From assembly GCA_944381075.1 (NCBI GenBank), contig CALWJT010000032.1, forward strand, positions 1 through 38,288: a stretch of DNA of 38,288 nucleotides, written 5' to 3'. Each line of letters starts with the position of its first letter. Position 1 is the stretch's first letter. Under the pieces are notes generated by a model. It was given only the letters and a program-made list of their open reading frames with translations, had not been told where the DNA came from and searched no databases. The DNA is from an uncultured Clostridia bacterium (GTDB lineage Bacteria > Bacillota > Clostridia > Oscillospirales > CAG-272). Positions 3,244 to 38,288 of this stretch are shown piece by piece. The position numbers were made by a program, and so were the translations under genes.

Positions 3244-3272
3244 TGATTCAACCTCCATTTCGGGTTAAGAAC

Positions 3273-3314
3273 AGTATAATCAAAATCCGGGCTGTTGTCA
3301 ACCCGGATTTTGAT
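3273..3314 (-). promoter_or_regulatory. Promoter and palindromic operator of the XRE operon
   Basis: On the minus strand TTGACA (3296-3301) and TATACT (3273-3278) are 17 bp apart, close to perfect sigma-A consensus. A perfect 13-bp inverted repeat has arms 3279-3291 and 3302-3314 (ATCAAAATCCGGG and its complement), separated by 10 bp. Its arms flank the -35 box and fill the spacer, so a dimeric repressor bound here would block RNA polymerase. The XRE protein encoded just downstream is the obvious candidate. Confidence 0.8.
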
Positions 3315-3344
3315 ATTTTGAAATTGCTTATCAAGTCATGGAAT

Positions 3345-3827: not shown

Positions 3828-4123
3828 ATCGGCGATTGATGTAACAAGCTTTTCTCCGCCCGTTGAAGCAACAAGGTATCTACCATCTCCATGCTACCAT
3901 TCTGCACAGAGATCCTTTGAATCGGCCCGTTATTCGAAATTTTGCTACAAATCGCAGTCAAGAGTTCGTCCACGGCGCTGTTTCCCCAGGAAAGGTCTGC
4001 CACTTTGTCCGTGACTGCATCATGCCGGTTGGTTACCCTTAGTTCACAGGGTCCATCGCTCCCCGACAAATGCCACACGCCATCGGCCGATGAGGTTTTT
4101 CTTATATCCCGAACAGACAGCAA
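3824..4123 (-). CDS. Hypothetical protein, possibly an N-terminally truncated gene
   Basis: Unrecognised 99-aa reading frame with a TTG start and no good ribosome site. The frame stays open further upstream and into the 3' end of the FkbH-like gene, so this may be the C-terminal remnant of a longer protein. Visible residues include SADGVWHLSGSDGPCELRV and a mixed C-terminal part. The coupling overlap with the 160-aa gene (ATGA at 3824-3827) argues that the end of the frame is really translated. The start coordinate is uncertain. Confidence 0.4.
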   Translation of the reverse strand: MLSVRDIRKTSSADGVWHLSGSDGPCELRVTNRHDAVTDKVADLSWGNSAVDELLTAICSKISNNGPIQRISVQNGSMEMVDTLLLQRAEKSLLHQSPI

Positions 4124-4172
4124 AAGCAGAATTAGGCACCAATCCTTTTGTGTTTTGTCTACTAACCTAAAG

Positions 4173-5717: not shown

Positions 5718-5718
5718 T

Positions 5719-5989
5719 TTATTCACCCATTGAGTTGTTTTGATTATCAACAACAGCAGATATGACATCAGTCATTTTGGATATGGTGTTCATCTCAGTT
5801 AACAGCAACTTTGAATCTGGCATTTCACATTCGAACTCTTCTTCAAGAGAAACAACAATCCGGATAAATTTGGATAGAATCCATTCCGAGTTTTGATAAC
5901 TCGGAATCGTATTGTTCAACAGTTACCGCTCCGTTTTCAATGTTTGTGTTGACAATTTCAAGTATTTTTTCCTTTGTAACTTCGTTCAT
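5719..5989 (-). pseudogene. Acyl carrier protein gene with a 1-nt frameshift
   Basis: Read from the ATG at 5989 (overlapping the previous stop as ATGA), the frame gives a normal ACP N-terminus and reaches LGMDSI, with the Ser that would carry phosphopantetheine, but then runs into a stop at 5843-5845 after 48 residues. The rest of a good ACP (KFIRIVVSLEEEFECEMPDSK, ending VVDNQNNSMGE) continues in the next frame. Removing one C from the run at about 5872-5873 restores a single ~90-aa ACP. So the gene is either broken by an insertion, read by frameshifting, or carries a sequencing error. It lies directly before the FkbH-like gene, the expected partner enzyme. Confidence 0.8.
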
Positions 5990-6909
5990 TCGGATACCCC
6001 CAAGAAAACGCGCTTATTTATTGCGATTTTCTCTTTGTCTTTTTCGGTCAAATCATCTTTTATCAGATCATATAGGTTTTCTGCTTCAAGCCGAGTCTTA
6101 AAATCGCATTTCCACTTTTTTTGTTCTTTGACACATAAGCCGTAGTAATCAAGCAATGCCTCTCCTTCGGGAGTCTTGAATGCTTCTATGTATTGTCTGA
6201 GAATCTCGTCGTCGAACACTTGTCCGGTGTGGTACAGGATGTAGAATACATACGGAATGATTTCATATCTTGAGCTCATCGCATACAGTTTGTCCAATGT
6301 GATCGTGTCAAGATTGTTTTTCAGAAGATAATATACGTCCTTGAACATATCGTATTTGATGCTTTTGCGTGTAGCAAGCAGGAAAATAGAGTTCATATCT
6401 TTATAGTGATGAAGAATAAGCTGAACCATTGCTTTAAGCGGAGGAAGAGTTTTTACTCTCACTCCGTAGATGTCCATGACTATTGTGTCGGATAGAAATT
6501 CGTCAATATCGATCCGCTTCCCGGTATATTCACCCCAAAAAATATCATAGTTTAGATCAATAATTATATTGATGTTTATTATTTCACACTGCTTTGTGTA
6601 AGATGGCGTTTGGTGCGAATATGCCAAGTGGAGTACTCGTTCTTCTTTTGTCAAGCAATTATATTTAAATCCATTGTTCAGTAAAACAGAATGTATCTCT
6701 TTAAGCATTCCTTTGTTAATTAAGATATCTATATCTGACCAATATCTATTCCCGTATGCCTTAAATGCAAAAAAAGATAATGCCTCTCCTTTTATGTATG
6801 CATACGGGAAGTCAGCGATTTGTTCAAATACTGAACGACATTTTACAAGCATTAACGAAGAAAAAACTTTATTGGCAGCACTTATATTTTCCAAATACAA
6901 CTCACTCAT
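5986..6909 (-). CDS. NTP_transf_5-type nucleotidyltransferase
   Basis: 307-aa protein resembling the uncharacterised nucleotidyltransferase family PF14907 (NTP_transf_5), often found in peptide-modification gene clusters. The core motif is visible: IKGEALSFFAF at 39-49 followed by YWSDIDILIN with Asp59 and Asp61 as candidate metal ligands, then the IIIDLNYDIFW strand near 120. The C-terminal half is helical. There is no signal peptide. The stop overlaps the ACP start (ATGA), and the ABC exporter gene is 24 nt upstream, so all belong to one operon. The reaction, perhaps transfer of a nucleotide to a product or carrier, is not known. Base composition is AT-rich. Confidence 0.78.
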   Translation of the reverse strand: MSELYLENISAANKVFSSLMLVKCRSVFEQIADFPYAYIKGEALSFFAFKAYGNRYWSDIDILINKGMLKEIHSVLLNNGFKYNCLTKEERVLHLAYSHQTPSYTKQCEIININIIIDLNYDIFWGEYTGKRIDIDEFLSDTIVMDIYGVRVKTLPPLKAMVQLILHHYKDMNSIFLLATRKSIKYDMFKDVYYLLKNNLDTITLDKLYAMSSRYEIIPYVFYILYHTGQVFDDEILRQYIEAFKTPEGEALLDYYGLCVKEQKKWKCDFKTRLEAENLYDLIKDDLTEKDKEKIAINKRVFLGVSE

Positions 6910-6933
6910 TTCTTGGTTAGACTAATTATCAAT

Positions 6934-8730
6934 CTAATTTTCATATTGACTGGACTGAATATAGTACATGTTAGCATATTTTCCATTCCTGTCTATCAAA
7001 TCTTTATGACAACCAATTTCTTCGACATGACCATTTTCAATTAGAGCAATCGTGTCTGCTTTTATTACAGTTGAAAGTCTGTGAGCAATCATTATTACCG
7101 TTTTATCTTTAGATATATCCAAGAGCTGATTATTAATTTCATATTCGCTGATTGGATCTAAAGCACTACTTGGCTCGTCCATAATATATATATCACTATC
7201 CTTATAGCACATTCTTGCTATACATAATTTTTGCTGTTCACCACCAGAAAAAACAATGCCTTCATTATCGAATAATTTACCATATTCGCTATGTATCCCT
7301 TTGGTGCTTGAAATCACTTTATTTAACAGTCCAACTTTTTTAAGAACTTTAGTTATTTTTTCTTGATCTACTTCTGTACTGCATGATATTATTTCATCTA
7401 TAGGCATTGAATACAACTGAAAATCCTGCAGCAATGTTGCTATCTTTTCTCTCAATGAGTATATATTATATTTCTTAATATCAATACCGTTTATTAAGAC
7501 GCGCCCAGATTCAGGATCGTAATATCGAAGTAATAGCTTTACTATTGTCGATTTACCAGCTCCGTTTAATCCAACTATTGCTAATTTCTCTCCTTTCCTA
7601 ATTGAGATATTAAAATCACGTAATACATAATCATCAGAGTGCGGATATTTAAAGTATACTTCACTAAAAATAATGGTATTAATTGTGCTAACTTTTTCTC
7701 CTTCATTTCGTTCAATTTTTGGTATATAGTCAATAACATTCTTTAAATTTTTAATATATAGGCAACTCTCTTTTAAGTTTGTTATTTCACGAGAGGCATC
7801 TGAAAAACCATTAACAATTAGATTGAATGAATTGTACATGGCTGGAATATCTGCAATCGAAATAATTGATCTGTATGCTTGAATTGCCAAGTATACATAA
7901 GGGAATAAAATGCTTAATAATGTCACGATTAATTGAGATTTAACTGTAAATCTCAATTTTTCTTTCGCTAATTCCATCGATAAACCAATTTGTTCATCAG
8001 CACTTTTATTATATTTTTTAATAATTAAATCCCCAAGCTGATTATATTGTTTAACATCCGATATCGTTGACTTATTAAACAGAAGCGAATGAAAATAATC
8101 AACAATTCTGTTGATTGGGACCATCTTTTCATACGCTTTGAATTTTACTTTTACGAAAAAAATATCAAGAAAGTACATTATTACTCCAGAACCAAGTGCA
8201 ACAATAATCATTCCCGCATTTAACATAGTTACAATAACAAGACCAGATATAAAATTAATAAGACTGATAGATAATCTAAGGAGTTGATAAAACACTTGCA
8301 TAGCTCGCCCATCAACTTGCGCTAAGGCTTTAGATAATTTGTCATAAAATTCCTTATCGTCAAAACATTCCATGTCCAATTCGGTACATTTTTTCAACAT
8401 GATATTATTTGAATATTTTTTCACATTTAAACTCATGCGATTAAATCTATGTTCATATATGAAATTGCTAAATATTCTTGTAATAATACTAACCAATGCA
8501 TATAATGATACTATTGCAATGATAAAAATCAATTCTTTGTTTTGAGTTAATGAATCAATTAAGAACTTATAAATAAGCGCATTAAATGCAGTTGGAATTA
8601 TATACCATAATAGATAGATTATAGCCCAAACAAATCCGGCTTTATCTGATTTAAAAATAAACCCCAACATGAAACGAAGAAGCTTAATACATTCCATAAA
8701 ACGTATATTATCATTATTTTTTTCTTTCAT
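6934..8730 (-). CDS. ABC exporter, fused membrane and ATPase domains
   Basis: 598-aa half-transporter: an N-terminal exporter membrane domain with about six hydrophobic segments (roughly 32-60, 68-90, 152-172, 174-196, 265-290 and beyond) and a C-terminal ATPase. Walker A is GLNGAGKST (387-395), the signature FSGGEQQ (494-500), Walker B DIYIMDEP (513-520) and the H-loop IMIAHRLS. There is no N-terminal peptidase domain, so any leader removal would need another enzyme. Its ATPase resembles those of the two exporters at 34.4-38.0 kb, including the SGGE-x-QKL signature. It starts 13 nt after the signal-peptidase-like fragment. Codon use is strongly AT-rich. The likely role is export of the operon's product. 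Confidence 0.93.
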   Translation of the reverse strand: MKEKNNDNIRFMECIKLLRFMLGFIFKSDKAGFVWAIIYLLWYIIPTAFNALIYKFLIDSLTQNKELIFIIAIVSLYALVSIITRIFSNFIYEHRFNRMSLNVKKYSNNIMLKKCTELDMECFDDKEFYDKLSKALAQVDGRAMQVFYQLLRLSISLINFISGLVIVTMLNAGMIIVALGSGVIMYFLDIFFVKVKFKAYEKMVPINRIVDYFHSLLFNKSTISDVKQYNQLGDLIIKKYNKSADEQIGLSMELAKEKLRFTVKSQLIVTLLSILFPYVYLAIQAYRSIISIADIPAMYNSFNLIVNGFSDASREITNLKESCLYIKNLKNVIDYIPKIERNEGEKVSTINTIIFSEVYFKYPHSDDYVLRDFNISIRKGEKLAIVGLNGAGKSTIVKLLLRYYDPESGRVLINGIDIKKYNIYSLREKIATLLQDFQLYSMPIDEIISCSTEVDQEKITKVLKKVGLLNKVISSTKGIHSEYGKLFDNEGIVFSGGEQQKLCIARMCYKDSDIYIMDEPSSALDPISEYEINNQLLDISKDKTVIMIAHRLSTVIKADTIALIENGHVEEIGCHKDLIDRNGKYANMYYIQSSQYEN

Positions 8731-8743
8731 AATTCACTCAACC

Positions 8744-8920
8744 TCATTCATAATTCCTTGTCAAGTTTATCATAATATAAATTATGTCAATTCTTACCTT
8801 TTGACCATCAACCAAGGAAGGATACATACTATTACCATTTACAGTAATAAATTCATTATTGAGTATATTGGGATGCTTTAATATCATCTGAAAAAATGCT
8901 GTTTTTTGTTTTAAATTCAT
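8744..8920 (-). pseudogene. S26/S24-type signal peptidase fragment (58 aa)
   Basis: A short gene starting at 8920 with GAGAGG 6-7 nt upstream. Residues 24-43 (FITVNGNSMYPSLVDGQKVR) match the Ser-containing box of signal peptidase I/LexA-type peptidases (G-x-S-M-x-P-[TS]-L-x-x-G). The frame then becomes DIIYIMINLTRNYE and stops. The Lys-containing region and the rest of the usual 150 or more residues are missing, so the protein cannot be a working Ser/Lys peptidase by itself. It ends 13 nt before the ABC exporter gene. S26-like proteins are common companions of NTP_transf_5 enzymes in peptide clusters, which fits the context. Fragment status is inferred from length. Confidence 0.65.
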
Positions 8921-8993
8921 TACATACCTCTCTAAAATAAATATATTCCGCTTATCTTGATGTCCTAATCAAAATTATTATTTTTAAATAAGA

Positions 8994-9119
8994 CTATAAA
9001 GTTAGGATATCTCCATCAACATTATTATCAAGTTTTTTACAGTTTCGAAGAATTTTTGCACCAACCGCGAACCCGCCAAATTTCATTCTCTCTACATAAT
9101 GCGAACTTACTTTTTTCAT
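8994..9119 (-). CDS. Small ORF, candidate precursor peptide (41 aa)
   Basis: An ORF beginning MKKVSSHYVERMKFGGFAVG and ending NNVDGDILTL lies between a terminator-like hairpin and the signal-peptidase-like fragment, the place where a precursor-peptide gene would be expected. It has one Cys, a basic middle and an acidic tail. The ribosome site is weak (GGAA about 9 nt upstream). I do not recognise the peptide. An overlapping frame across the same region lacks a start codon. Treat this as a candidate only. Confidence 0.3.
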   Translation of the reverse strand: MKKVSSHYVERMKFGGFAVGAKILRNCKKLDNNVDGDILTL

Positions 9120-9157
9120 CTACAAGGTTTCCAACAAAGTAAAACTCATTAGAACAT

Positions 9158-9205
9158 AAAAAGCGACACAAGGCGCAGTTACATATTGCGGCTTGTATCG
9201 CTTTT
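9158..9205. terminator. Terminator or attenuator hairpin before the ABC/FkbH operon
   Basis: Arms of about 14 bp (AAAAGCGACACAAG at 9159-9172 and CTTGTATCGCTTTT at 9192-9205) with an 19-nt loop and T-runs on both strands. On the minus strand it lies about 180 nt after a good promoter and before the signal-peptidase-like fragment. It may therefore limit read-through from small upstream ORFs into the exporter operon. Confidence 0.65.
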
Positions 9206-9260
9206 AATTTCTATTATAAAAAAGTGCAGAATACATCTAGGACAATTAATTCTATACTGT

Positions 9261-9350
9261 TCATTCGAAAATTTTTGCATACATTTCTGATGTTTCATTT
9301 ATTGTTACATCCTCTTGTCTATTTTCTTCAACCCTCATTAAATTCTGCAT
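9261..9350 (-). CDS. Tiny ORF (29 aa) at the start of a short transcript
   Basis: The first ATG after the promoter at 9374-9402 opens a 29-aa acidic frame (MQNLMRVEENRQEDVTINET...) that ends with an ATGA overlap onto a 16-aa frame (9214-9264, MNSIELIVLDVFCTFL). A third frame (9179-9298, 39 aa) contains CPRC. None has a strong ribosome site, and I recognise none of them. The region may instead be an untranslated leader or small RNA ending at the hairpin at 9158-9205. Confidence 0.22.
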   Translation of the reverse strand: MQNLMRVEENRQEDVTINETSEMYAKIFE

Positions 9351-9373
9351 ATTATACTTTCTAGTTTTGTTTA

Positions 9374-9402
9374 ATATTACCATGTATTTTTGAAAATGTC
9401 AA
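9374..9402 (-). promoter_or_regulatory. Predicted promoter upstream of the ABC/FkbH operon
   Basis: On the minus strand TTGACA (9397-9402) and TAATAT (9374-9379) are 17 bp apart, with a TG one base before the -10 box (extended -10). It points toward the small ORFs and the exporter/FkbH operon. Confidence 0.65.
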
Positions 9403-9582
9403 GCATTATTTGTAATAAATTTGTAATTTAAATTTTTATTATGCATATTGGTCGTTTCCGATGACAAATATGCACAAAAATTGCGATCGTTTTTATTGAT
9501 GGGCTGCAAAAGTACAACCTATGCTGTGTAAAAGCCATATTCCATTATGCTTATTTCTCTTTGTTATATATATTTAGATGCA

Positions 9583-9702
9583 TTAATTTTCCATCGTTGC
9601 CGTTTGTTCAATTCCGCCTTTGAATATGACCAGCAGGTCGTTTGATGAAGTCCATTTGCAAACTTTTCCCAAAATCTTCGATTCGATATAAGATAACTTC
9701 AT
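9583..9702 (-). CDS. Small hypothetical ORF (39 aa)
   Basis: Starts MKLSYIESKILGKVCKWTSS with AAAGGA 9-10 nt upstream and ends in TATMEN. Its amino-acid pattern is protein-like, with hydrophobic and charged residues alternating. I do not recognise it. It lies after a strong hairpin (9732-9763) and before the operon promoter at 9374-9402, in an AT-rich stretch with no other gene. It may be a remnant. Confidence 0.3.
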   Translation of the reverse strand: MKLSYIESKILGKVCKWTSSNDLLVIFKGGIEQTATMEN

Positions 9703-9731
9703 ATCGCAATTTCCTTTCTAATTGAATAAAA

Positions 9732-9763
9732 AACGACCTGATTTTCACTAAAATCAAGCCGTT
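9732..9763 (-). terminator. Strong intrinsic terminator
   Basis: A 14-bp stem (arms 9732-9745 and 9750-9763, two G-U pairs) with a 4-nt loop and a run of six T on the minus strand just after it. It could end transcription coming from the tRNA-Ser fragment side. Confidence 0.7.
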
Positions 9764-9804
9764 ATCAATGCAATAATTCTATTTTTAACATATTTGAGGA
9801 AAAA

Positions 9805-9842
9805 GAAGAGACAAGCCAGCTCTAAAACAAGTTTGTCTCTTT
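9805..9842 (-). terminator. Terminator after the tRNA-Ser fragment
   Basis: AGAGACAA (9807-9814) pairs with TTGTCTCT (9833-9840) on an 18-nt loop, starting about 2 nt after the tRNA 3' end on the minus strand. Its position right behind the CCA end suggests that it is the original tRNA terminator. Confidence 0.5.
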
Positions 9843-9843
9843 T

Positions 9844-9901
9844 TGGCGGAGCGGGTGGGATTCGAACCCACGAGCCCGTGAGGACTACCTGATTTCGAGT
9901 C
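9844..9901 (-). tRNA. 3' half of tRNA-Ser(CGA), probable attachment site
   Basis: On the minus strand the sequence from GACTCGAAATC (anticodon loop CTCGAAA, anticodon CGA) through a long variable arm, the T arm GTGGG-TTCGAAT-CCCAC, the acceptor strand CCGCTCC, discriminator G and CCA reads as the 3' half of a serine tRNA. The 5' half is wrong: the bases before the anticodon loop do not pair with TCAGG, and no D arm forms. An HTH gene ends 10 bp further upstream. This is what integration into a tRNA anticodon loop leaves behind, so it is probably a relic attachment site rather than a working tRNA. Confidence 0.6.
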
Positions 9902-9911
9902 CGAGTCGCTA

Positions 9912-10130
9912 TCAGAAACCATGCTCCGCCATTCCGTTTTCGCGGCGGCCCTTGATATACTTCCCGCTCTTGATCCGTGCATCGGCGGGCTTCGGTTCAT
10001 CATCGGGGATTGCCCATCTGTTGCCGATTTTTACCGCGCCCGGAATCCGATTCTCACCGCACAGCACCTGAATACGGCGTGATGAGATGCCCCATCTCTC
10101 GGCTGTCTGTGAGACAGAAAGATACTTCAT
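9912..10130 (-). CDS. MerR/excisionase-like small HTH protein (72 aa)
   Basis: 72-aa protein starting MKYLSVSQTAERWGISSRRIQVLCGENRIPGA, a winged-helix DNA-binding fold as in excisionases and the MerR-like helix_turn_helix_17 group, followed by VKIGNRWAIPDD, the usual wing. The basic C-terminal tail is short. GGGAGG lies about 8 nt before the ATG at 10130, which is preferred to an earlier in-frame ATG at 10163. Such proteins often act as recombination directionality factors or small regulators in integrative elements. Its position next to the tRNA-Ser half fits that role, but no tyrosine integrase remains in the window. Confidence 0.78.
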   Translation of the reverse strand: MKYLSVSQTAERWGISSRRIQVLCGENRIPGAVKIGNRWAIPDDEPKPADARIKSGKYIKGRRENGMAEHGF

Positions 10131-10578
10131 TGTAACAGCCCTCCCAGTCGATCCTCTTTGCATCGTCTTCTAAGTCGCAGATATAATAACTCATTATATA
10201 TTGTAGTCCGATTCGCGAATAAAATCAAGGTATTTCGACAAATTTCCCACCCTACTTAATTCTCTTTTACTTTGGGGCTTGGGATGCTCCCAACAGGTGA
10301 ACATCGCCGTGTGTACATACACCGGCTGTGCTTGCTGTTCTCCAAAATCACATATCTACAAATAGAATGCGCTCCCGCTTTGCATAAGGGCCGGAGCGCA
10401 TTTTTCTTTGCCTTTTTTCAGTTTTCTCCCGGACAAACGGTGAATAAATGTCCGTTGTAAAGTGAAGGGAGGTTTTTCGGAGAAGTATATCGGCCGATAC
10501 AAAGTTTTTCGTCATTGACCGAAGGGAGGTGAATGAATCACGGCAAACCGTACAAGACCAATCCGCATTGAGTTTTGC
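10131..10578. other. Non-coding stretch before mobC, possible oriT region
   Basis: No convincing gene between the divergent HTH gene and mobC. The right part has a hairpin (10366-10402) and a strong GGGAGG ribosome site (about 10524). In mobilisable elements the transfer origin usually lies just upstream of mobC, so oriT may have been here. I cannot point to a specific nick site. Confidence 0.35.
10366..10405 (+). terminator. Intrinsic terminator-like hairpin
   Basis: Ten-bp perfect arms (AATGCGCTCC at 10366-10375, GGAGCGCATT at 10393-10402) with a 17-nt loop and a T-run on the plus strand. No gene ends just before it, so it may be a leftover or part of a transfer-origin structure. Confidence 0.6.
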
Positions 10579-10869
10579 GTGACCGAACAGGAGAAGCAGC
10601 TGATCCGGCACAAGATGATGCAGCTCGGCACAAAAAACATGGGCGCATATCTCCGAAAGATGGCAATTGACGGTTACATCATCAAGGCGGACTACACCCA
10701 GCAGAAAAAGCTGGCTGCCGCCATTAGCCGGGCAGCGTCAAATATCCATCAGATCTGTCGAAGAATCAACGGCACCGGGCGTTTCTATGCAGAGGATGTT
10801 GCGGAACTGAAAGAACGGCAGATTGAAATATGGTCGCTGCTGAAGGAGACGCAAAAGGAGGAACTGTAA
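10579..10869 (+). CDS. mobC: MobC-like mobilisation protein, start damaged
   Basis: Accessory relaxosome protein that helps a relaxase act at oriT. The MobC signature is clear: LIRHKMMQLGTKNMGAYLRKMAIDGYII, then QKKLAAAISRAASNIHQICRRINGTGRFYAEDVAELK. The first ATG-like codon in frame is GTG at 10579, but it lacks a ribosome site. The frame reads sensibly (ITANRTRPIRIEFCV) back to 10537, where a strong GGGAGG is correctly placed but the codon is ATC. An ATG three bases earlier is out of frame by one base, so a 1-nt insertion probably destroyed the normal start. No relaxase gene follows, so the mobilisation module is incomplete. Confidence 0.78.
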   Translation: MTEQEKQLIRHKMMQLGTKNMGAYLRKMAIDGYIIKADYTQQKKLAAAISRAASNIHQICRRINGTGRFYAEDVAELKERQIEIWSLLKETQKEEL

Positions 10870-11091
10870 CCACAACGGACTTTTCCGTGTCCGGCTTTTC
10901 CGTATATGGGTTTTCGGAGCGCGGATTTGCGGACGCCCCAAGAAAAAGATTTTTAGCCGCCCAGACCGCACTTTTCCATGCGGTATCGGAGGATGGAACG
11001 CATCCTCTAATCAATAAGAACAAAACAACATACAAAGAATCATCCATCAATCCAATCAAGACCAAGCGGATGGATAGGATAGGAGAGCTTT

Positions 11092-11483
11092 ATGGAGCAG
11101 AGCTTTTTGAAATTCGCGTTGACAGCTTGTCGGCGTCGTACATACCATTCCCGCGTTTTCTGATGGAGGATGCACTTGCGGCGCTCTCCAACGACGCAAA
11201 GGTGCTTTACGCGCTGCTGTTGGACCGGGCAAGCATTTCCAAGGTCAATGGTTTTCTCGAAACGGACGGCACCATCCGCCTTTATTTCACCGTGGAACAG
11301 GCGCAGAAGAAGCTTCACCGCAGCCGTCAGTCGGCCACCCGCATTTTCAGGGAGCTGGAGCATTGCGGTCTGATCTGCCGAAGAAAGCAGGGCCTCGGCA
11401 GACCCGCCGTGATCACGCTCAACTACCCGGCAAATGCGAAACTCATCCAGCCCAAAGAGGATGGCGAGAATCTGTTGAGATAA
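11092..11483 (+). pseudogene. repA: RepA N-terminal-domain replication initiator, truncated and frameshifted
   Basis: The RepA_N-type domain is plain: SASYIPFPRFLMEDALAALS, NDAKVLYALLLDRASISK, LYFTVEQAQKKLHRSRQSATRIFRELEHCGLICRRKQGLGRP. The natural start is ATG 11092 with AGGAG 7 nt upstream, giving MEQSF, but this is one base out of frame with the domain. Adding one T to the five-T run at 11104-11108 would join them. The domain frame itself is open from 10830, and its upstream part resembles a linker normally found after the domain. After the domain the protein ends quickly (AKLIQPKEDGENLLR), lacking the usual C-terminal part. It is most likely a remnant. Confidence 0.7.
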
Positions 11484-11604
11484 AGGTCGAAAACAAGCCG
11501 TTTTACCCGCTGTGAAGCGCGATTTTTGAGGGGACGATGCCTTTTCCCTACGAAAGGCAAACGAACGGTTTCCACGCCATTTTCATCCCGTAAGGAGGGG
11601 GGCG

Positions 11605-11787
11605 ATGACGCACAATAAAAGTGAAATACACGAAATGGATGCAATCGAAATTCCGGAGTATGTATACGAGTCTCTGGCAAGAAGCTTGCTGCCCACCATT
11701 CAGAAATACTACGAGAGCGGCGAAGGCAAGCAAGCCTTCGCCGAATGGCAGGCAGCACAGACTGCGGATAACAAAGAGAAGACATAG
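11605..11787 (+). CDS. Small conserved mobile-element protein (60 aa)
   Basis: 60-aa acidic protein, MTHNKSEIHEMDAIEIPEYV followed by YESLARSLLPTIQKYYESGEGKQAFAEW. From memory, short proteins of this kind recur in clostridial integrative elements near replication or recombinase genes. No function is known. The start has GGAGGGGGG about 6 nt upstream. Its stop codon lies inside a 24-bp inverted repeat. It is the last gene of the remnant before ssrA. Confidence 0.65.
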   Translation: MTHNKSEIHEMDAIEIPEYVYESLARSLLPTIQKYYESGEGKQAFAEWQAAQTADNKEKT

Positions 11788-11835
11788 CAAAACAGGAGGG
11801 CAGCCGCGTGAGCTGCCCTCCTGCTTTGCTATGTC
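11781..11835 (+). terminator. Long inverted repeat, probable terminator
   Basis: Two 24-bp arms (11781-11804 and 11812-11835) match as complements except for one position, with a 7-nt loop. The stop codon of the 60-aa gene is inside the left arm. There is only a weak T-run, so it may act as a terminator, an RNA processing site or a repeat end. Confidence 0.5.
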
Positions 11836-11914
11836 ACCAATCTGCGATTTCCTCGATAAAAACAAGAAATCCGAACCCATCTCCGATTGGATAAAAGTTC
11901 GGATTATCTCGTTG

Positions 11915-12266
11915 TGGTGGACCCGAGGGGAGTCGAACCCCTGTCCGAAAACCGATCCATACAGCCTTCTCCGAGCGCATCTTGTCTTTTTGAATTCCCC
12001 TTTCCGTACGCCGGCAAGCAGGCTTACGGAAAGAGTAGCTTTTTTCTTTATGACAGCTTCAAAAGCAAACGGGCTGTGCACATTTACCGCTAAATGACGC
12101 CCGGACGCAGGCCGCGGTCCTCCCGCGCCGGACGCGCCGCGCTTAGGCGGCGAGCGCTACTTTTCTATTGTTAGCGTTTATTTTTAAATTGAGATTGTTT
12201 AACGAGATATCCCACCTCGGCTCGCTTACCGTACTTCAGAGTCCCCGTCGAAACCTTTACGGGCCC
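11915..12266 (-). ncRNA. ssrA: tmRNA (tag ANNRKVALAA)
   Basis: Transfer-messenger RNA that rescues stalled ribosomes. The 5' end GGGCCCGTAAAGGTTTCGAC is typical, and its GGGCCCG pairs with CGGGTCC at the 3' end (one G-U), followed by A and CCA. The T arm GGGG-TTCGACT-CCCC is intact. On the minus strand the tag frame GCT-AAC-AAT-AGA-AAA-GTA-GCG-CTC-GCC-GCC-TAA gives ANNRKVALAA, ending in the ALAA degron. Length is about 352 nt. It starts 8 nt after the smpB stop codon, so both may be transcribed together. Confidence 0.95.
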
Positions 12267-31624: not shown

Positions 31625-32611
31625 TTAAAGCCCGTTCGGAGAACCGCCCATCGCCAGCACGGCGTTCAAAATTTCCCTTTCCTCCGATAAATTTTTACGG
31701 AGCATTTTCTCTATTTTATCAAAAGCGGAAGCGCTGCGCATCACGTTTGCTTTTATCGCCAGATTTTTCATGGTGACAGCATCCTCATAGATATGGGTAT
31801 AATCAACAAAATCCTTTCTATTCCACGCTTCCAGAAGCAGACGTATTCTTAAATCCATCAGCTTTTTATGCTCTAAATAGAGGTTGAAAAACCGGATATC
31901 CAGCTTTTTCCCTTCCATGATGGTTTGTTTCGAATGCTCAAGCATATCAAGCACCGCCTCCATCCCCCACGCCCCCTCCCGATGAACGGCAGTAAACGGA
32001 ACGATCCATGACGTAGGCTGGGATTCCACATAATCCCTTATCATTTGAAGGTTGAATTCAGGCTCAAAATGATACTGATTGTAGGAGGCATACGAGAAAA
32101 ACACGGTATACCGTCCCGGCTGTACGGCATGAAAAGCATCGTCGAATTCCTTGTCGGACAGCGTCGTTTCCACGTAATGTCCATGTTCATCATATCCCAG
32201 CGCGCACAACGTATGTTCATCGTATCCATAAATCAAAATATCGTGGATAAAATGGGATCTTTGATAAGTATTCCGATGCGGGACATAATATTCGTCCACC
32301 ATAGAATAAACATAACCGCCGTTATCGATAGAGCGTTTGACACAATCGACAACGGAAAGGCTCCAATGCTTCGCATAGTCGCCTCTTATGATATTGTGGA
32401 TGTCAACACACGTCCAGCTGTCAAATGACGGATAATAGAAATTAAAAGGAATACTCTTCCCCTTTCTGTAAGTCAACTGTGTAAAATTATTGAGGACAAA
32501 ATATAGCACATCCGGTTTATTCGCCAGCAGGGCGGAAAGCGGCAGCGCATAGCTTTGATAAGTACCTATAATAGGATTTGCCTCGATTTTTAGTTTTGTC
32601 ATAGCACCCAT
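31625..32611 (-). CDS. BtrH-like protein, putative peptidase or acyltransferase
   Basis: About 328 aa, soluble. The middle part has FDSWTCVDIHN (possible nucleophile Cys), then VDEYYVPHRNTYQRSHFIHD and ILIYGYDEHTLCALGYDEHG, a layout I associate with BtrH N-terminal-type papain-fold proteins; known members move an acyl group from a carrier protein to an acceptor. The C-terminal 150 residues are helical with RIRLLLEAWNRKD. Start is ambiguous: ATGs at 32617, 32611 and 32602. The one at 32611 has AAGGA 7 nt upstream. It follows the protease/P-loop gene and is probably the last gene of the peptide operon. Family assignment is moderate and the reaction is unknown. Confidence 0.5.
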   Translation of the reverse strand: MGAMTKLKIEANPIIGTYQSYALPLSALLANKPDVLYFVLNNFTQLTYRKGKSIPFNFYYPSFDSWTCVDIHNIIRGDYAKHWSLSVVDCVKRSIDNGGYVYSMVDEYYVPHRNTYQRSHFIHDILIYGYDEHTLCALGYDEHGHYVETTLSDKEFDDAFHAVQPGRYTVFFSYASYNQYHFEPEFNLQMIRDYVESQPTSWIVPFTAVHREGAWGMEAVLDMLEHSKQTIMEGKKLDIRFFNLYLEHKKLMDLRIRLLLEAWNRKDFVDYTHIYEDAVTMKNLAIKANVMRSASAFDKIEKMLRKNLSEEREILNAVLAMGGSPNGL

Positions 32612-32662
32612 CCCCATATCCTTGAAACAAAATCAGCCTTTTTATGGATGGTTTGAAGTCTG

Positions 32663-34435
32663 TCAAAAAAAGTCGACAACCACCTGAAATAGCTGCCGCA
32701 TATCCTCCTCGGCGCCAAGCCGAAAGACGGGGACCTCGAATTTTTCTGACAGCATCTCCTTTATTTTTCGGTATTTTTCCTCCGCGAGCGGCTGCTTGGA
32801 GCTATATATCCCCGCCCAGCCGTCTCGGATATCCATTGGAAAGACAACCAGCGAAATGACCTCGCAGCCGACGCTCGATTCGATAAAATCGATGGTCCGT
32901 TCTATATATTGCAGGCTGTCATAGGGATTGACACATAATATCACCGCGTCCGGATGTGTCCCGACCAAAAATTCGTACTGAGGGATATTATACTGGATCA
33001 GATTGCCAAAATCAAAAGTGACCGAGCCCGACTGAGAGCCAACCAAAATAATGTCCTTCTGCTGCCGGCACAGCGCGTTCATTCTGTCGTTCAGGTATTT
33101 TATCACGTCAAATCCCTGAATGGACACGGTAGAATGATACCCCATGGGAAAGACATCGTCCATTCCGTATAACAGGGAGCTCGGTTCCGTACCGATCTGT
33201 CCGACCTTGTATCCTGCCGCGAGCAGCATCTGGCGCAATTTCAACTGCAGGGTGAATTTTCCCTGACGGGAGCTCGTGCCGAAAACGCCCAAAACCGGCT
33301 TCGACAGATGATACAGCATGCCGAATCGATTCGGCAGCACCTCCCTTACGCAGGGGAAGTAAACATTTTCATTGTTCTCATACTGAGGGACGGCGTCAAA
33401 GGAATATACTTTTTTCTTTCTTTGAAGCGCCTGTTCGATCAAGGAATCCTTGAGATCCGAGAGCTTCACAAGCGAAGACAATTCGTCCGTATGTCCTAAA
33501 ATGAGCGTGTCAAAGCGGTCCCAATCGATATTGCTTATATTTTTTATCAGAATATTCTGGACCGAATCATCCTTGAGCAAATGCGCCGTAGTCGCTCCCA
33601 CCGTCGACGAATATTTGGTATCATAAATTTCACAGATCTGAAACGAGAGCAGGTCATGATATCGAACGAGGCTGTGCATCTCCTTGTTAAAGGGAAACAG
33701 CGCGGCGCGCTCGATCTCAAAGCGCTTGCCGGAGGAGGGCACGCAGGAGGGCGCTTCGTACTTGTGAATCGCAATCTCGCGAAATCTCTCCAGCAGCGCC
33801 TCCCTCGTTTTCACGCCTTCCGACATGAACTGCACCGCCTGTACGGTCGCATGCGCACAGGCGAAGCTGTTCCCTCTTATCATGATATAATCCGGCTGTG
33901 ACCATGCCACACGCTGCAGGCCGCCTTTGGCGCCAAGATTGACGACCGGATCCTCGATGAACTCGAAATCACAGGTTCGATCGGTATTCTGACCGGAAAT
34001 GACACCGATTACATTGTCAAATGCCGCAGGATACGAAATAGCCCCAAAGTTGTCAAAAGCAGAAAGGATGACCGTACCGTCATCTGTCAAAGCCCTGCAG
34101 GCCTGATACAGATCCTCATACTGCTCGCAGACGTTGAGACCAAGGCTCAGATTGACGATATCGGCGTGCTGCGTCTCCCTGATATAGCGGAGCACCCAGA
34201 TCAGGTCGCTCTCCTCAAGCCCCTCTTCAAGACCGGGTATCCCGATCACCGTAAGCTCCGCATCTGCATGGCATTGGCTGATGATTGCCGCAACGGCGGT
34301 TCCGTGTCCGTAGGAATCATTGTCCCAAGGCGCCGGAACGACGCTTCCCTGCTCATATTGCAGGGATTCTATCCTCTTGCCCTTCAAAATCGGATGAGAC
34401 CGTCTGACGCCGCTGTCGACAATCACAATTTTCAT
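32663..34435 (-). CDS. S8 subtilisin-like protease fused to a DUF1611-like P-loop domain
   Basis: 590-aa two-domain protein without a signal peptide, so probably cytoplasmic. Residues 1-235 form a compact subtilase: Asp7 in IVDSGV, His44 in YGHGTAVA, Asn129 near SAFDNFG (oxyanion candidate) and Ser190 in IRGNSFACAHAT. Residues about 380-590 look like the DUF1611/BioD-like P-loop domain: VFGTSSRQGKFT (383-395) matches its GT-x-x-x-x-GK-x-T pattern, and IILVGSQSGSVTF at 462-474 its later glycine box. The gene starts 2 nt after the exporter's stop codon, with GGAGG inside that gene. In context it is the likely leader peptidase of the peptide locus. How the ATPase part helps is unknown. Confidence 0.85.
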   Translation of the reverse strand: MKIVIVDSGVRRSHPILKGKRIESLQYEQGSVVPAPWDNDSYGHGTAVAAIISQCHADAELTVIGIPGLEEGLEESDLIWVLRYIRETQHADIVNLSLGLNVCEQYEDLYQACRALTDDGTVILSAFDNFGAISYPAAFDNVIGVISGQNTDRTCDFEFIEDPVVNLGAKGGLQRVAWSQPDYIMIRGNSFACAHATVQAVQFMSEGVKTREALLERFREIAIHKYEAPSCVPSSGKRFEIERAALFPFNKEMHSLVRYHDLLSFQICEIYDTKYSSTVGATTAHLLKDDSVQNILIKNISNIDWDRFDTLILGHTDELSSLVKLSDLKDSLIEQALQRKKKVYSFDAVPQYENNENVYFPCVREVLPNRFGMLYHLSKPVLGVFGTSSRQGKFTLQLKLRQMLLAAGYKVGQIGTEPSSLLYGMDDVFPMGYHSTVSIQGFDVIKYLNDRMNALCRQQKDIILVGSQSGSVTFDFGNLIQYNIPQYEFLVGTHPDAVILCVNPYDSLQYIERTIDFIESSVGCEVISLVVFPMDIRDGWAGIYSSKQPLAEEKYRKIKEMLSEKFEVPVFRLGAEEDMRQLFQVVVDFF

Positions 34436-34437
34436 CG

Positions 34438-36216
34438 TTACACCTCCACATAATACTGCGCCTGCATATTCCACATCTTGGCATATAAGCCGCCCTCTGC
34501 CATCAGCTCCGTATGAGTTCCGTACTGCACGATCTCACCGTGGTCCAACACCGCGATCTTGTCACAGAACTTGCAGCTTGACAGTCTGTGAGAGATGTAG
34601 AGCGCCGTTTTGTTTTTCGTGAGCTCGTTGAATTTTGAATAGATCTCCGCCTCCGCAATGGGATCGAGCGCCGCCGTCGGCTCGTCTAAAATAATGACGG
34701 GCGCGTTTTTGCAAAGCGTTCTCGCCATCGCCAGCTTCTGTGCCTCACCGCCGGAAAACTCGATTCCGCCGCTGTCGAATTCCTTGCTGATATTGGTATC
34801 CAAGCCCTTGGGAAGGCGCTCCAGCTTGGTACCGAGCCCGATCTTGACAAGCGCGCCCGTCACCTGACTTTCGTCGCATTCCTCCCCCAGGGAAACATTC
34901 TCTTTCACTGTAAAATTGAACAGCTTAAAGTCTTGGAAAACCGCTCCGATCAAGCGGATGTAGTCGTCATACGAATACCGGTTGATATTGACCCCATTCA
35001 ATAGAATCTCGCCCTCGGTCGGTTCGTACATGCGGCAGAGCAGCTTGACGAATGTCGTCTTGCCGCTTCCGTTCACACCCACAAGCGAAAGCGAGCTCTT
35101 GCTGTTCAACGTCAGCGAAATATTTTTTAAAACGTATCTGTCCGTATTGGGATATTTGAAGGAAACATTTTGAAACTGCAGGACCACATGCTCCGGATCC
35201 ACTTCCAAAGCCTCGGCGGCATCCTTTTTTTTGGATTTATCCGCGATCTCGATACAATACCGGAAGTCCTTCACGAACAGTCCGGTCTGCATGACCGAAG
35301 AAATCGCAGTAACGATCGACCTTACGTTATTGGAAAACGTAGATACCGACGACGTATACATGGAAAAATCGCCGATCGTCATCGCCTGAAACACGACCTT
35401 ATAGGCCAAGATCAGATAAACGGCCCCCTCCTGCAGGATACCCGCGGCGGACGACAGTATGTTGTTGCGCTGGATCTCCTTGTTGTGTCTGGTCGATGTA
35501 TCAAGATAGATCTCCGTTTGCGCATCGGCCTTGTCATAGAACCATTCCTGCAAATTGTTCACCCGGACCTCCTTGCCGAACTCCGGCCGTCTTATCACAT
35601 TGAGATAATAATGCTCCTTCCGCATAATGGGCGCGTAGCGGGGACGCCACTTATCCCAGAGCTTCCTGTTCTTCTTGTCGGCAAACAGCCTTGTCATAAC
35701 GACCAGCGCGATAAAAAGAAAAATGACCGGCTGTATGGTGATGATGATAGCCGCCACGCCCGCTATGGTCAAAAGGGAGGTGAGGATGCTGGAAATATAG
35801 TCAAAGACCTTTGAAAAATTGGTCCCGTCCTGCGCCAGCTGGATAAAATCCCGGACTTTCGGCTGTTCCGCGTCGCTGTAGGGCATCTCCATTACGATAT
35901 TGCCGAGCCGGTTTTTGATCTTTCTTACCGTCAGCTCCAGCTGATTCTGCAGAAAATAGTTTAAAATGGCAGTCAGCACGCCGGTGACCAAGGTAGCCGC
36001 CGCCAGCAGCACGACATACAGGACCACACGGTCCATATCCCCGCCGATCGTGATCTCATTTAAAATCAGCCTCAAAAAAAGGATGGGGATAAACGGAGTC
36101 GCCGCGTTGAGCAGGATCTGCGGCACTTTGATAAAGAAAACCGTGCGGTTCGTTCGATAGGCAAATTTCAGCAAAAAGGCGCAGTTGGAAAACAGTCCAT
36201 ACTCTTTCTTTTTCAT
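34438..36216 (-). CDS. ABC exporter subunit A (membrane + ATPase)
   Basis: 592-aa half-transporter. Membrane domain 1-320 with six likely segments (about 30-52, 65-90, 145-165, 165-180, 265-285 and 300-315). ATPase with Walker A GVNGSGKTT (380-388), signature FSGGEAQKL, Walker B VIILDEP and H-loop LYISHRLS. There is no N-terminal C39 peptidase. The ATG overlaps the stop of the second exporter gene (ATGA), so the two are translated together and probably form a heterodimer. Placed between the peptide genes and the protease gene, it should export the peptide. The short signature SGGE-x-QKL is shared with the exporter at 6.9 kb. Confidence 0.93.
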   Translation of the reverse strand: MKKKEYGLFSNCAFLLKFAYRTNRTVFFIKVPQILLNAATPFIPILFLRLILNEITIGGDMDRVVLYVVLLAAATLVTGVLTAILNYFLQNQLELTVRKIKNRLGNIVMEMPYSDAEQPKVRDFIQLAQDGTNFSKVFDYISSILTSLLTIAGVAAIIITIQPVIFLFIALVVMTRLFADKKNRKLWDKWRPRYAPIMRKEHYYLNVIRRPEFGKEVRVNNLQEWFYDKADAQTEIYLDTSTRHNKEIQRNNILSSAAGILQEGAVYLILAYKVVFQAMTIGDFSMYTSSVSTFSNNVRSIVTAISSVMQTGLFVKDFRYCIEIADKSKKKDAAEALEVDPEHVVLQFQNVSFKYPNTDRYVLKNISLTLNSKSSLSLVGVNGSGKTTFVKLLCRMYEPTEGEILLNGVNINRYSYDDYIRLIGAVFQDFKLFNFTVKENVSLGEECDESQVTGALVKIGLGTKLERLPKGLDTNISKEFDSGGIEFSGGEAQKLAMARTLCKNAPVIILDEPTAALDPIAEAEIYSKFNELTKNKTALYISHRLSSCKFCDKIAVLDHGEIVQYGTHTELMAEGGLYAKMWNMQAQYYVEV

Positions 36217-37997
36217 TGGGCACCTCCGTCGCTTACTCGGTAATACTGAGCTTGCTTGTCAAACATTTCGGCATAGAGGCCGTTCTGCTGCATCAGCGCT
36301 TCATGGTCCCCATATTCCACGATTTTGCCGTCCTGAAATACAGCGATATGATCGCAAAAGCGCGTCGACGCCAAGCGGTGCGAAATGAAAATCGACGTCT
36401 TGCCGGCGGTGATCTCCTTGAAATTCTGATAGATCTCATCTTCCGCCAGCGCATCCAGCGCCGCCGTCGGCTCATCCAGTATCACAAAGCGGGCGTCCTT
36501 ATAATAAGCCCTCGCAATGACGAGCTTCTGACCTTCCCCGCCGGAAAATTCAATGCCGTTTTCATCAAAATCCTTATAGATATTGGTGGCAAGTCCGTTC
36601 GGCAATGAATCCACCCGGCTTTGCAGGCCCGCGTCCCGGATCGTTCTGTCCAGCTTCTCCTCATCGAGCGGTTGATTCAGCACGATATTTTCAAGGAAAG
36701 AAAAGGAGAACACCTTGAAATCCTGGAATACGACCGCAAGCGCCCTCAGATATTCCTCCCGCTTGATGGTCGAAATATCGACGCCATAATACTTGATAAC
36801 CCCCTTGGTCGGATAATAAAAGCGGCAGAGCAGCTTGACAAAGGTCGTTTTCCCCGCCCCATTCATCCCGACGATGGACAGCTTTTCCCCCGTATGTATC
36901 CGGATCGAGACGTCGTTCAAAACGACCCTTTCGGTATTCGGATAAACAAAGCTGACATGCTCGAATTCAAACATCGGGAGGGCCGGATTCTTCTGCGGCA
37001 TATCGTTTATTTCTGTTTTCTCATGCTGCGGCAGTGCGATATTTTCATATTCATGATAGTCATCAATGTATTTGGAAAGGAACTTCATTTTGATGCACTG
37101 CGCCACGACATTGTTGAACGCGCCGGAAAGGTTGTATATCGCGCCGATATACAGGCTGAACTCGCCGACCGAGATCTCTCCCATGATCGCGATATAGGCG
37201 ACATAGCCATAAGAAAAAAGCATTTGGACAAAGGAGACGACGCGAAGCAGGATATTGACCCAAAGCTGTTTTTTCAAAAATTTTTTATTGTCCGTATTGA
37301 AATCGGATGCGGTCCGGTCGAATTTGCCGGACAATATCTCCTTTGCCCTGTTGACTCTGACCTCCTTGGCATAGTCGAAATTGGTCATGGTCTCAAAGAG
37401 ATAGTCGAAGAGTCTTGTATACCGGGAAAGCGTCGGCTGATACCGATATTCGTTTTTGGAAAGCTTCCGATTCAAAAAATAATTGGCAACGACAAGGCAA
37501 AAAATAACTGCCAAAACGACAGGATGCAGCATGGCAATGAGATAAGCATATCCGAAAAGCTGGATCAAACTCGTCAAAAAGCTGGACAGGATAAGAAAAA
37601 TAAAGTTGTTGGGATGCACCTGTTTTACAACCGTCTGCTGCAGATTGCGGACCTTCTCATCCTCCAACTTCTCATAATCCATTTTGGCACACTGATAGGC
37701 ATAGGAAAGTCCTGTCTTCACGTCGCTTCGGTTGATCGACATGTTGATGAACACATTAAACGCGATGGAAAGCCCGCGCAGCAGCACAAGGCTCCCGATA
37801 AACAAGCCGATGATAAGAAGAACGGTGTTCCAGTCCCGCTCCCCGGTCAGCTCGTCGATTACCAGCGCCGGAAAGATCAAATAGATAAACGGCTCCACGG
37901 CGCCAAGGGTGATTTGGATTGCGGCCGCCAGAAAACTTCTTTTACTTATTTTCCACGAGTATCGAAACATAAAAGCCATATTTCGAATAAATTTCAT
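36213..37997 (-). CDS. ABC exporter subunit B (membrane + ATPase)
   Basis: 594-aa half-transporter, first large gene after the peptide repeats. Membrane segments at about 22-48, 58-85, 133-155, 155-175, 250-275 and 280-300. ATPase with Walker A GMNGAGKTT (377-385), signature FSGGEGQKL, Walker B FVILDEP and H-loop IFISHRLA. A Walker B Glu and a normal signature are present in both subunits, so both sites look active. GGGAGG lies 5 nt before the ATG, and the leader shares sequence with the peptide repeats, so the gene seems to sit in the same array. The stop overlaps the next gene. Confidence 0.93.
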   Translation of the reverse strand: MKFIRNMAFMFRYSWKISKRSFLAAAIQITLGAVEPFIYLIFPALVIDELTGERDWNTVLLIIGLFIGSLVLLRGLSIAFNVFINMSINRSDVKTGLSYAYQCAKMDYEKLEDEKVRNLQQTVVKQVHPNNFIFLILSSFLTSLIQLFGYAYLIAMLHPVVLAVIFCLVVANYFLNRKLSKNEYRYQPTLSRYTRLFDYLFETMTNFDYAKEVRVNRAKEILSGKFDRTASDFNTDNKKFLKKQLWVNILLRVVSFVQMLFSYGYVAYIAIMGEISVGEFSLYIGAIYNLSGAFNNVVAQCIKMKFLSKYIDDYHEYENIALPQHEKTEINDMPQKNPALPMFEFEHVSFVYPNTERVVLNDVSIRIHTGEKLSIVGMNGAGKTTFVKLLCRFYYPTKGVIKYYGVDISTIKREEYLRALAVVFQDFKVFSFSFLENIVLNQPLDEEKLDRTIRDAGLQSRVDSLPNGLATNIYKDFDENGIEFSGGEGQKLVIARAYYKDARFVILDEPTAALDALAEDEIYQNFKEITAGKTSIFISHRLASTRFCDHIAVFQDGKIVEYGDHEALMQQNGLYAEMFDKQAQYYRVSDGGAQ

Positions 37998-38034
37998 AGC
38001 AGCCTCCCTATTATATGATAAATTTTTAAAATTT

Positions 38035-38060
38035 GGTAAGGTCAGGCGCCTGACCTTACC
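38035..38060 (-). terminator. Perfect 26-bp palindrome after the peptide gene
   Basis: A 13-bp sequence (GGTAAGGTCAGGC) is immediately followed by its exact complement, between the peptide stop codon (38081) and the exporter ATG (37997). An almost identical copy (perfect over 24 bp) is at 38222-38245. It is followed on the minus strand by CCAAATTTT, so it may be a partly read-through terminator or an RNA processing hairpin that gives more peptide than exporter. Confidence 0.7.
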
Positions 38061-38080
38061 GTAAACTTAGGTAAGTTAAG

Positions 38081-38188
38081 TTAATGCCAGATCGTGCACT
38101 GATAGTTCATTCCACCTTCAACAGCATACAGGCAAACCAGCTTGCTCTGCTTTGTCATTTTCTTCTTCAGCGTTTTCAAACATTTCAC
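38081..38188 (-). CDS. Candidate precursor peptide, copy 1 (35 aa)
   Basis: Minus-strand frame beginning at GTG 38188 (MKCLKTLKKK) and ending VEGGMNYQCTIWH. Other in-frame starts are TTG 38179 and ATG 38158 (MTKQSKLVCLYAV). A run of six G (GGGGGG) lies 5-11 nt before these starts. The first half is basic, as in leader peptides. The second has one Cys five residues from the end and a GG pair before the last nine. Two following exporters, a protease and the repeated gene copies support a secreted peptide. An ATG frame at 38183 gives only 21 residues and is less likely. The start codon is the weakest point. Confidence 0.6.
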   Translation of the reverse strand: MKCLKTLKKKMTKQSKLVCLYAVEGGMNYQCTIWH

Positions 38189-38266
38189 CCCCCTTCAACA
38201 TATGATAAATTTTAAAATTTAGTAAGGTCAGGCGCCTGACCTTACCGTAAACTTAGGTAAGTTAAG

Positions 38267-38288
38267 TTAATGCCAGATCGTGCACTGA
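38267..38288 (-). CDS. Candidate precursor peptide, copy 2 (partial)
   Basis: The last codons before the window end read QCTIWH and a stop, exactly as in the copy at 38081. The rest lies beyond the right edge. It shows that the peptide gene is tandemly repeated and that its C-terminus is conserved. Confidence 0.6.

Follow-up and report, generated by a model that had tools for sequence, protein, structure and literature searches.

At the right end of a 38288-base window from an uncultured Clostridia bacterium, the whole of contig C32 of a 2.0-Mb draft genome (G000; 47 contigs, 93.6% complete), lies a compact candidate locus for making a modified peptide, all of whose genes are on the minus strand. 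Read in the direction of transcription it consists of one or more small peptide genes, two ATP-binding cassette (ABC) half-exporter genes, a gene that fuses a subtilisin-like (S8) protease to a TIGR04066/DUF1611 P-loop protein, and a gene for a BtrH-like protein. The window edge at 38288 is also the contig edge. Every visible gene is intact, open over its full length, with conserved catalytic residues present. The features are as follows.

38267..38288, minus strand: 3' end of a second copy of the peptide gene (six codons and a stop), recognized from a 186-base repeat unit and cut by the contig end
38084..38179, minus strand: precursor peptide gene, 32 codons from TTG 38179, stop codon at 38081-38083, called from the open reading frame (ORF) listing and a left-out profile search
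38035..38060, minus strand: 26-base perfect palindrome with an A/T-rich tail between the peptide gene and the ABC genes, fold z -3.6
36213..37997, minus strand: ABC half-exporter 1 (ABC1), 594 amino acids (aa), with Walker A, FSGGE signature, DE and H-loop, no C39 domain
34438..36216, minus strand: ABC half-exporter 2 (ABC2), 592 aa, with Walker A, FSGGE signature, DE and H-loop, no C39 domain
32663..34435, minus strand: fused S8 protease and TIGR04066/DUF1611 P-loop protein, 590 aa from ATG 34435, a longer GTG form from 34474 being possible
33821..34432, minus strand: S8 (subtilisin-like) domain of the fusion
32675..33712, minus strand: TIGR04066 domain of the fusion, with an FPFNKEMH motif and a GTSSRQGKF P-loop
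31625..32617, minus strand: BtrH-like protein of putative accessory role, 330 aa, or 325 aa if translation starts at the second ATG; BtrH_N is matched weakly

Both halves of the fused protein score above the Pfam cut-offs, Peptidase_S8 (PF00082) at E 2.8e-12 (47 bits against 21.8) and DUF1611 at E 2.1e-11, which bears out a preliminary description of this DNA, made from the letters alone, that had proposed a subtilisin joined to a DUF1611-like domain. The NCBIfam family TIGR04066 is matched at E 1.4e-25, with 90-92 bits that fall below its cut-off of 200, and the nearest named model for the S8 half, QhpE (NF049966), gives 93.4 bits against a cut-off of 165. The P-loop region resembles PDB 2g0t, which we take to be a DUF1611 protein (E 3.5e-5, only about 130 positions around the P-loop aligning), and presumably BioD-type P-loops as well; the difference from DUF1611 proteins is that in the window the domain sits fused behind a protease. 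Judged by title and abstract, neither of the papers listed for DUF1611 treats its function. When we aligned the fusion with those of 24 of the 32 named loci that carry one, the S8 catalytic Asp, His and Ser, the oxyanion Asn and the P-loop GT...QGK were identical in 25/25 proteins. Eight loci were left out of this alignment (L042, L044, L052, L055, L056, L057, L061 and L063); the motifs are also present in L044 and L052, and L056, whose protease lacks its N-terminal part, is without the protease ones.

The small gene at the contig end had been described as a tandem pair of 35-aa peptide genes. A short peptide ORF is indeed there, but we read it as 32 codons, because TTG 38179 sits 6 bases past AAGGGGGGTG, a Shine-Dalgarno spacing that the alternative GTG start (35 aa), directly abutting the AAGGGGG stretch, does not offer, and because most homologous precursors start at the position matching TTG 38179. 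Only one complete peptide gene lies in the window, together with, at the edge, the end of a second copy; the repeat unit measures 186 bases, and where the two copies visibly overlap the first 67 bases are identical. The predicted peptide has a basic leader, a VCLYAVE motif and two Cys in all, Cys being the residue from which sactipeptides and ranthipeptides form their thioether cross-links. The palindrome downstream of it recurs with one mismatch at 38221-38246, 3' of the partial peptide gene, and may be an attenuator limiting read-through from peptide to exporter genes; it is absent from the output of the terminator scan.

From related loci we collected small ORFs that lie close to the fusion gene and have a ribosome-binding site and a basic N-terminus, giving 52 distinct candidates with the window's included. 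The pattern hydrophobic-x-hydrophobic-aromatic/Leu-x(1-4)-Glu occurs in 32 of them, the window's among these, where 1000 shuffles gave 3.2 on average and 9 at most, a comparison not independent of the choice of pattern, which was picked after viewing the precursors. By eye, two of these 32 are improbable precursors; among the 20 ORFs that do not show the pattern, some are clearly precursors whose motif varies and others are obvious non-precursors. A profile was then built from 29 motif-bearing precursors of other loci, the window excluded and three coming from a sister locus in the same genome; it omitted the two unlikely motif matches (L018_10562 and L054) and every candidate that lacked the motif. 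Among 999 stop-to-stop frames of at least 20 residues in the window, this profile found the peptide alone, at E 1.4e-6, the next frame scoring 0.49. The match is therefore beyond chance, and we rejected a chance ORF as the source of the peptide gene. An overlapping 27-aa frame at 38118-38201 was also rejected as precursor, the family profile matching the 32-codon frame only.

The two exporter genes overlap by 4 bases, and 2 bases separate the ABC2 stop from the ATG of the fusion gene, a tight spacing that suggests translational coupling. No C39 domain appears among the Pfam matches of either protein, so the earlier view of two coupled half-transporters that lack this peptidase was right; the Pfam membrane domain is below cut-off in ABC1 and not listed for ABC2, and full-length exporter models match both. 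The locus thus resembles C39-type bacteriocin export systems in having an ABC exporter adjoining a small peptide gene, and differs from them in that its ABC proteins carry no N-terminal C39 peptidase, the protease being the S8 fusion instead. A similar half-transporter pair, 66-79% identical in DNA in short pieces and with no fusion gene beside it, lies elsewhere in the genome (L008, G000:C37:122000-141900, 8497-12191). We rejected it as a second copy of the locus: within the genome TIGR04066 was found on no contig other than C32 and C31, and three forward frames inspected by eye showed no obvious precursor. Since ABC half-transporters are common and this pair on C37 stands without a fusion gene, one could suppose that the window genes form an unrelated efflux or housekeeping unit of exporters and protease with a small ORF beside it by chance, but the precursor profile test, the motif excess and the recurring neighbourhood contradict this, and we regard it as very improbable indeed.

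The last gene of the locus was called BtrH-like in the preliminary description, and a BtrH_N (PF14399) match is found, but a weak one (E 1.1e-4, 22.9 bits, below the cut-off of 29.7). Across the family to which the protein belongs, a His is kept in 20/21 members, the best Cys column reaches 6/21, and only 5/21 match the BtrH model at all; the family profile found no convincing relative in the PDB (best E 1.9). A role as Cys acyltransferase or peptidase was rejected, given a Cys in at most 6/21 at any family column. As the family keeps a His but no Cys, binding is the likelier role for the protein than Cys catalysis, to judge by these conserved columns. With BtrH of butirosin biosynthesis the protein shares the weak match around the conserved His and, in relatives, the presence of carrier proteins in the same loci; it differs in its below-cut-off score and in having no conserved Cys.

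The same grouping of a precursor with basic leader and hydrophobic-x-hydrophobic-Tyr...Glu motif, an ABC pair and the fusion recurs in Clostridia and Bacilli, the two classes from which the 32 named fusion loci come. Counting the window's own genome each time, the fusion occurs in 10/395 genomes of the family, 13/394 of the order and 1/7 of the genus. In 44 loci with the fusion we scored a radical S-adenosylmethionine (radical SAM) protein in 41, a carrier protein in 37, a BtrH-like protein in 26, a transglutaminase-like protein in 8 and at least two ABC matches in 33. Contig ends truncate some of these loci, and fragments of genes were counted; the duplicates L075, L081, L085 and L086 were removed beforehand, L061 and L063 were both kept though their carrier genes are identical over the compared stretch, and L041, L057 and L084 were scored radical SAM-positive on short or partial matches (337, 289 and 208 residues). 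The Ser of the carrier protein is invariant in 18/18 aligned. Scattering of the genes in relatives, or frequent breaks in the peptide frame, had been named beforehand as grounds for doubt; the genes stay together in relatives, and homologous loci have intact peptide frames.

Three of these loci are especially informative for the layout. In L033 a radical SAM gene and a carrier gene come first, then two peptide genes, two ABC genes, the fusion and BtrH, and the window corresponds to the right-hand half of this order; L048 has the same right-hand layout as the window with one peptide gene. The closest relative is L032, whose fusion is 59% identical and the sister of the window's with support 100/98; closer relatives were not found in 395 and 204 family genomes (overlapping samples), 7 of the genus or 394 of the order. 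The window genome itself contains a second locus of the class (L018, G000:C31:9000-28900, 1549-10241), with a radical SAM gene, a carrier protein, three precursor genes, a transglutaminase-like protein, an ABC pair and an S8-TIGR04066 fusion.

We rejected a phage or plasmid as the usual carrier of such loci: no match was found in phages or plasmids, and of the 13 hits to the pattern on viral contigs none turned out to be a relative. An exception is L056, where genes for an M23 peptidase and a VirB4-like conjugation ATPase adjoin the fusion locus (7375-11611); it probably sits in a conjugative element, as these neighbours suggest.

The closest characterized counterpart is the CLI_3235/CcpM class (TIGR04065, TIGR04066, TIGR04068 and TIGR04069), exemplified by SacP23 of Paenibacillus polymyxa. 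According to the available text of PMC10731318, the SacP23 cluster comprises a radical SAM protein, TIGR04066, an acyl carrier protein (ACP)-related protein, an S8 protease and an ABC exporter, and shows activity after cloning into B. subtilis; the available text of PMC4573289 describes a Roseburia locus whose parts are separate. The window shares with this class a short precursor with a basic M-K-K-L leader and a Cys-bearing core, TIGR04066, and both the S8 protease and the ABC exporter that membership requires; its relatives add the radical SAM/SPASM maturase and the carrier protein. It differs in carrying the TIGR04066 domain with its P-loop on the protease chain, no separate one being found beside it, and in that the fused class usually exports by an ABC pair.

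The likeness to CLI_3235 systems proposed in the preliminary description thus stands as far as the TIGR04066 match and the leader go, but not at the level of membership. The peptides of the window, L032 and L033 match no family at E 1, TIGR04065 included, while 3/3 tested precursors from loci with a separate TIGR04066 do so at 55, 38 and 32 bits (cut-off 26). Conversely, the Tyr...Glu motif is absent from 10/10 precursor candidates of the CLI_3235/CcpM class. Maturases of the fused loci match TIGR04068/CcpM in 14/14 cases, the best at E 7.4e-32 (110.8 bits) against a cut-off of 500 (L018 at 111 bits and L033 at 101, versus 626 for one separate-locus maturase). They also match TIGR04463, a radical SAM/SPASM model that is the best-scoring named one for two of them and is matched in 14/14 tested, but again far below cut-off (L033: 204 against 525 bits), and no such protein is visible in the window. 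No TIGR04069 protein is visible in the window; of the relatives' carrier proteins, 6/18 match this model weakly (best 8.9e-5), and a general ACP model picks up 18/18 at E 0.1. Because the precursor misses TIGR04065 and TIGR04066 and, for the relatives' maturases, TIGR04068 stay below cut-off, the fused class is by these model scores a sister of the CLI_3235/CcpM class and not a member of it.

A class-wide search of 391 genomes separates the two architectures. TIGR04066 above cut-off was found in 15 genomes, always as a separate protein (220-497 bits, frames of 370-417 residues); one further separate frame scores 121 bits and two partial matches 114 and 69. Low scorers at 52-92 bits are six frames of 561-624 residues, four of them confirmed fusions (two of the window genome, L158 and L159). 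No TIGR04066 match was found in 14 control genomes.

The separate proteases turned out to share more with the fusion than their S8 domain. They were found in 7/15 fetched CLI_3235-type stretches, one of them doubtful (1929 residues), and are about 440-550 residues long; beyond the S8 part, Pfam and NCBIfam give nothing but matches at chance level. The tail of these proteases matches the TIGR04066 domain: single proteins gave E 6e-6 and 1.4e-5, and a profile of six tails gave 96.9%, E 1.4e-10 over 155 columns (the C-terminal halves from L148, L150, L151, L154, L156 and L147, with the 1929-residue S8 match of L146 left out). Controls gave 1.6%, E 0.031 for the TIGR04066 domain against the BtrH-like family and 0.1%, E 0.76 for maturases against the tails. 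No tail carries the GT...QGK P-loop in the alignments shown. We therefore rejected the idea that the separate proteases are bare S8 proteins. As these profile matches indicate, both classes pair an S8 domain with a TIGR04066 fold, with the P-loop in the same chain in the fused class and, in the other, a P-loop-less tail plus a separate P-loop protein; the pairing is thus old.

Taken as a whole, the locus is a real and mostly intact peptide-maturation locus of a sister class that has no name. That it makes a ribosomally synthesized, post-translationally modified peptide of an uncatalogued class sister to CLI_3235/CcpM (SacP23) seems to us highly likely from the gene content and profile matches. 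The peptide-maturation reading offered before holds in that the fused protein matches TIGR04066, a part of CLI_3235 systems. It was also correct that the combination could not be named: no curated NCBIfam model fits the fused class, no name for it occurs among the matches listed in the literature searched, and the available portions of PMC10731318, PMC4573289, PMC7343975 and PMC7876137 do not name the fused architecture.

Several observations weigh against this interpretation. No radical SAM or other modifying enzyme is visible in the window, where the contig ends. The closest relative, L032, holds only BtrH, peptide, ABC, ABC and fusion genes between opposite-strand genes that by eye resemble housekeeping genes; a radical SAM or carrier match is lacking throughout its 18-kb stretch, which includes about 5 kb upstream. 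Its second ABC gene (8221-9999) has an in-frame stop, by assembly error or real decay; the window lineage could accordingly be decaying or use enzymes in trans. The fusion genes of L056 and L055 are broken or partial. Finally, the role ascribed to TIGR04066 would have its link to the protease as sole footing.

The absence of a maturase from the visible part, as first described, is confirmed, but the contig stops where most relatives carry a radical SAM gene (most keep this and the carrier gene near the peptide genes), so nothing follows for the locus as a whole. The earlier suggestion of a radical SAM gene beyond the right edge fits 41/44 related loci, but not L032, which has none at its locus; that a maturase lies just past the contig edge we consider somewhat more likely than not. 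The peptide repeat is on no other contig of the genome, beyond matches of at most 32 bases, so that the neighbouring piece is probably missing from the genome bin; searches of the genome for the lost contig found nothing.

Alternatively, maturase and carrier may have been lost, the peptide being merely trimmed, or modified by protease, P-loop domain and BtrH-like protein, or served by a maturase borrowed from a sister locus. L032, sister of the window at 100/98, has no radical SAM or carrier match at its locus and no maturase of this kind on its contig, and the window genome has three other maturases of this kind, on C31, C6 and C16, the C31 one beside the second fusion gene. A maturase match is nonetheless present in 41/44 loci, and the BtrH tree, which joins the L032 protein to the BtrH encoded upstream in L033 (99/97), suggests that L032 arose by deletion from a layout with a maturase. 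Moreover, all three maturase-less loci (L032, L055 and L056) carry a damaged gene, compared with about 5/41 others (Fisher p 0.004, on a post hoc count made by eye), while the visible window genes are intact. A locus that does without radical SAM is thus the less likely course, though one to be taken seriously.

Of the three other maturases, that on C6 starts 1.5 kb from the contig end and reads away from it, an ABC gene following; the other two are internal. The C6 locus (L111, 1529-6037) has a radical SAM protein, an ABC protein (by eye) and a protein weakly resembling BtrH (20.6 bits for BtrH_N, whose cut-off is 29.7), and that on C16 (L112, 8117-14809) a radical SAM protein with an ABC protein (by eye) and a carrier protein; TIGR04066 was not found on either contig. 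A carrier-protein-like gene of the class also lies on C18 (L113, 3969-4262), a contig on which no maturase of this kind was found.

The damage seen in relatives might also mean that the window holds a leftover peptide system making nothing. The nonsense codon in the second exporter gene of L032 and the damaged L055 and L056 point that way, but the window genes are full-length with conserved catalytic residues, their close spacing is kept and the peptide matches the family profile, which makes such a remnant improbable.

On the preferred reading of a working maturation locus, the core peptide would first be modified in the cytosol, in relatives by the radical SAM/SPASM maturase and its carrier-protein partner. 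The S8 domain would then cut off the leader by analogy with QhpE, and the fused P-loop domain might power or complete this cleavage, or cap the new N-terminus. According to the available text of PMC7876137, QhpE acts in the cytoplasm, removing a leader once the radical SAM cross-links are in place; ABC export by QhpF comes afterwards. The QhpD/QhpE/QhpF system is thus alike in using a subtilisin-like protease for cytoplasmic leader removal followed by ABC export; it differs in that its product is an enzyme subunit (quinohemoprotein amine dehydrogenase gamma subunit), and the QhpE model is without a P-loop fusion. The ABC pair would finally export the product, with no need of a C39 peptidase because the leader would already have been removed, and the BtrH-like protein may assist, more likely by binding than by Cys catalysis.

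A bolder scheme would have the fused protein cleave the leader and act as macrocyclase or capping enzyme on one chain, whether or not a radical SAM step takes part. Cleavage by the S8 domain would fall close to the motif's hydrophobic beginning, and the P-loop domain, with ATP, would join the new N-terminus to the conserved Glu, mostly six residues on, or to an acyl group, yielding N-terminally blocked or lasso-like peptides. This would fit the SacP23 N-terminus, which is reported to be Edman-blocked, the same pair acting there as two chains. We hold this scheme to be a long shot.

The protease-TIGR04066 pairing is the chief surprise of the locus. The available text of PMC10731318 proposes TIGR04066 as immunity in the SacP23 system; the fusion, together with the P-loop-less TIGR04066-like protease tails, ties it to leader removal instead, and the pairing seen in both classes is the strongest argument for a role at leader removal or capping and not at immunity. 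The fused class would also be a hidden family of modified peptides, since it has no curated name, yet is spread over 13/394 sampled order genomes and into Bacilli; the product may act as a bacteriocin or a signal, and its distant cousin SacP23 inhibits Gram-positive bacteria. The invariant carrier Ser beside the maturase in relatives raises the question of which acyl group, if any, goes onto the peptide. Away from the locus, the window also holds a transfer-messenger RNA (tmRNA) gene with tag ANNRKVALAA at 11915-12266.

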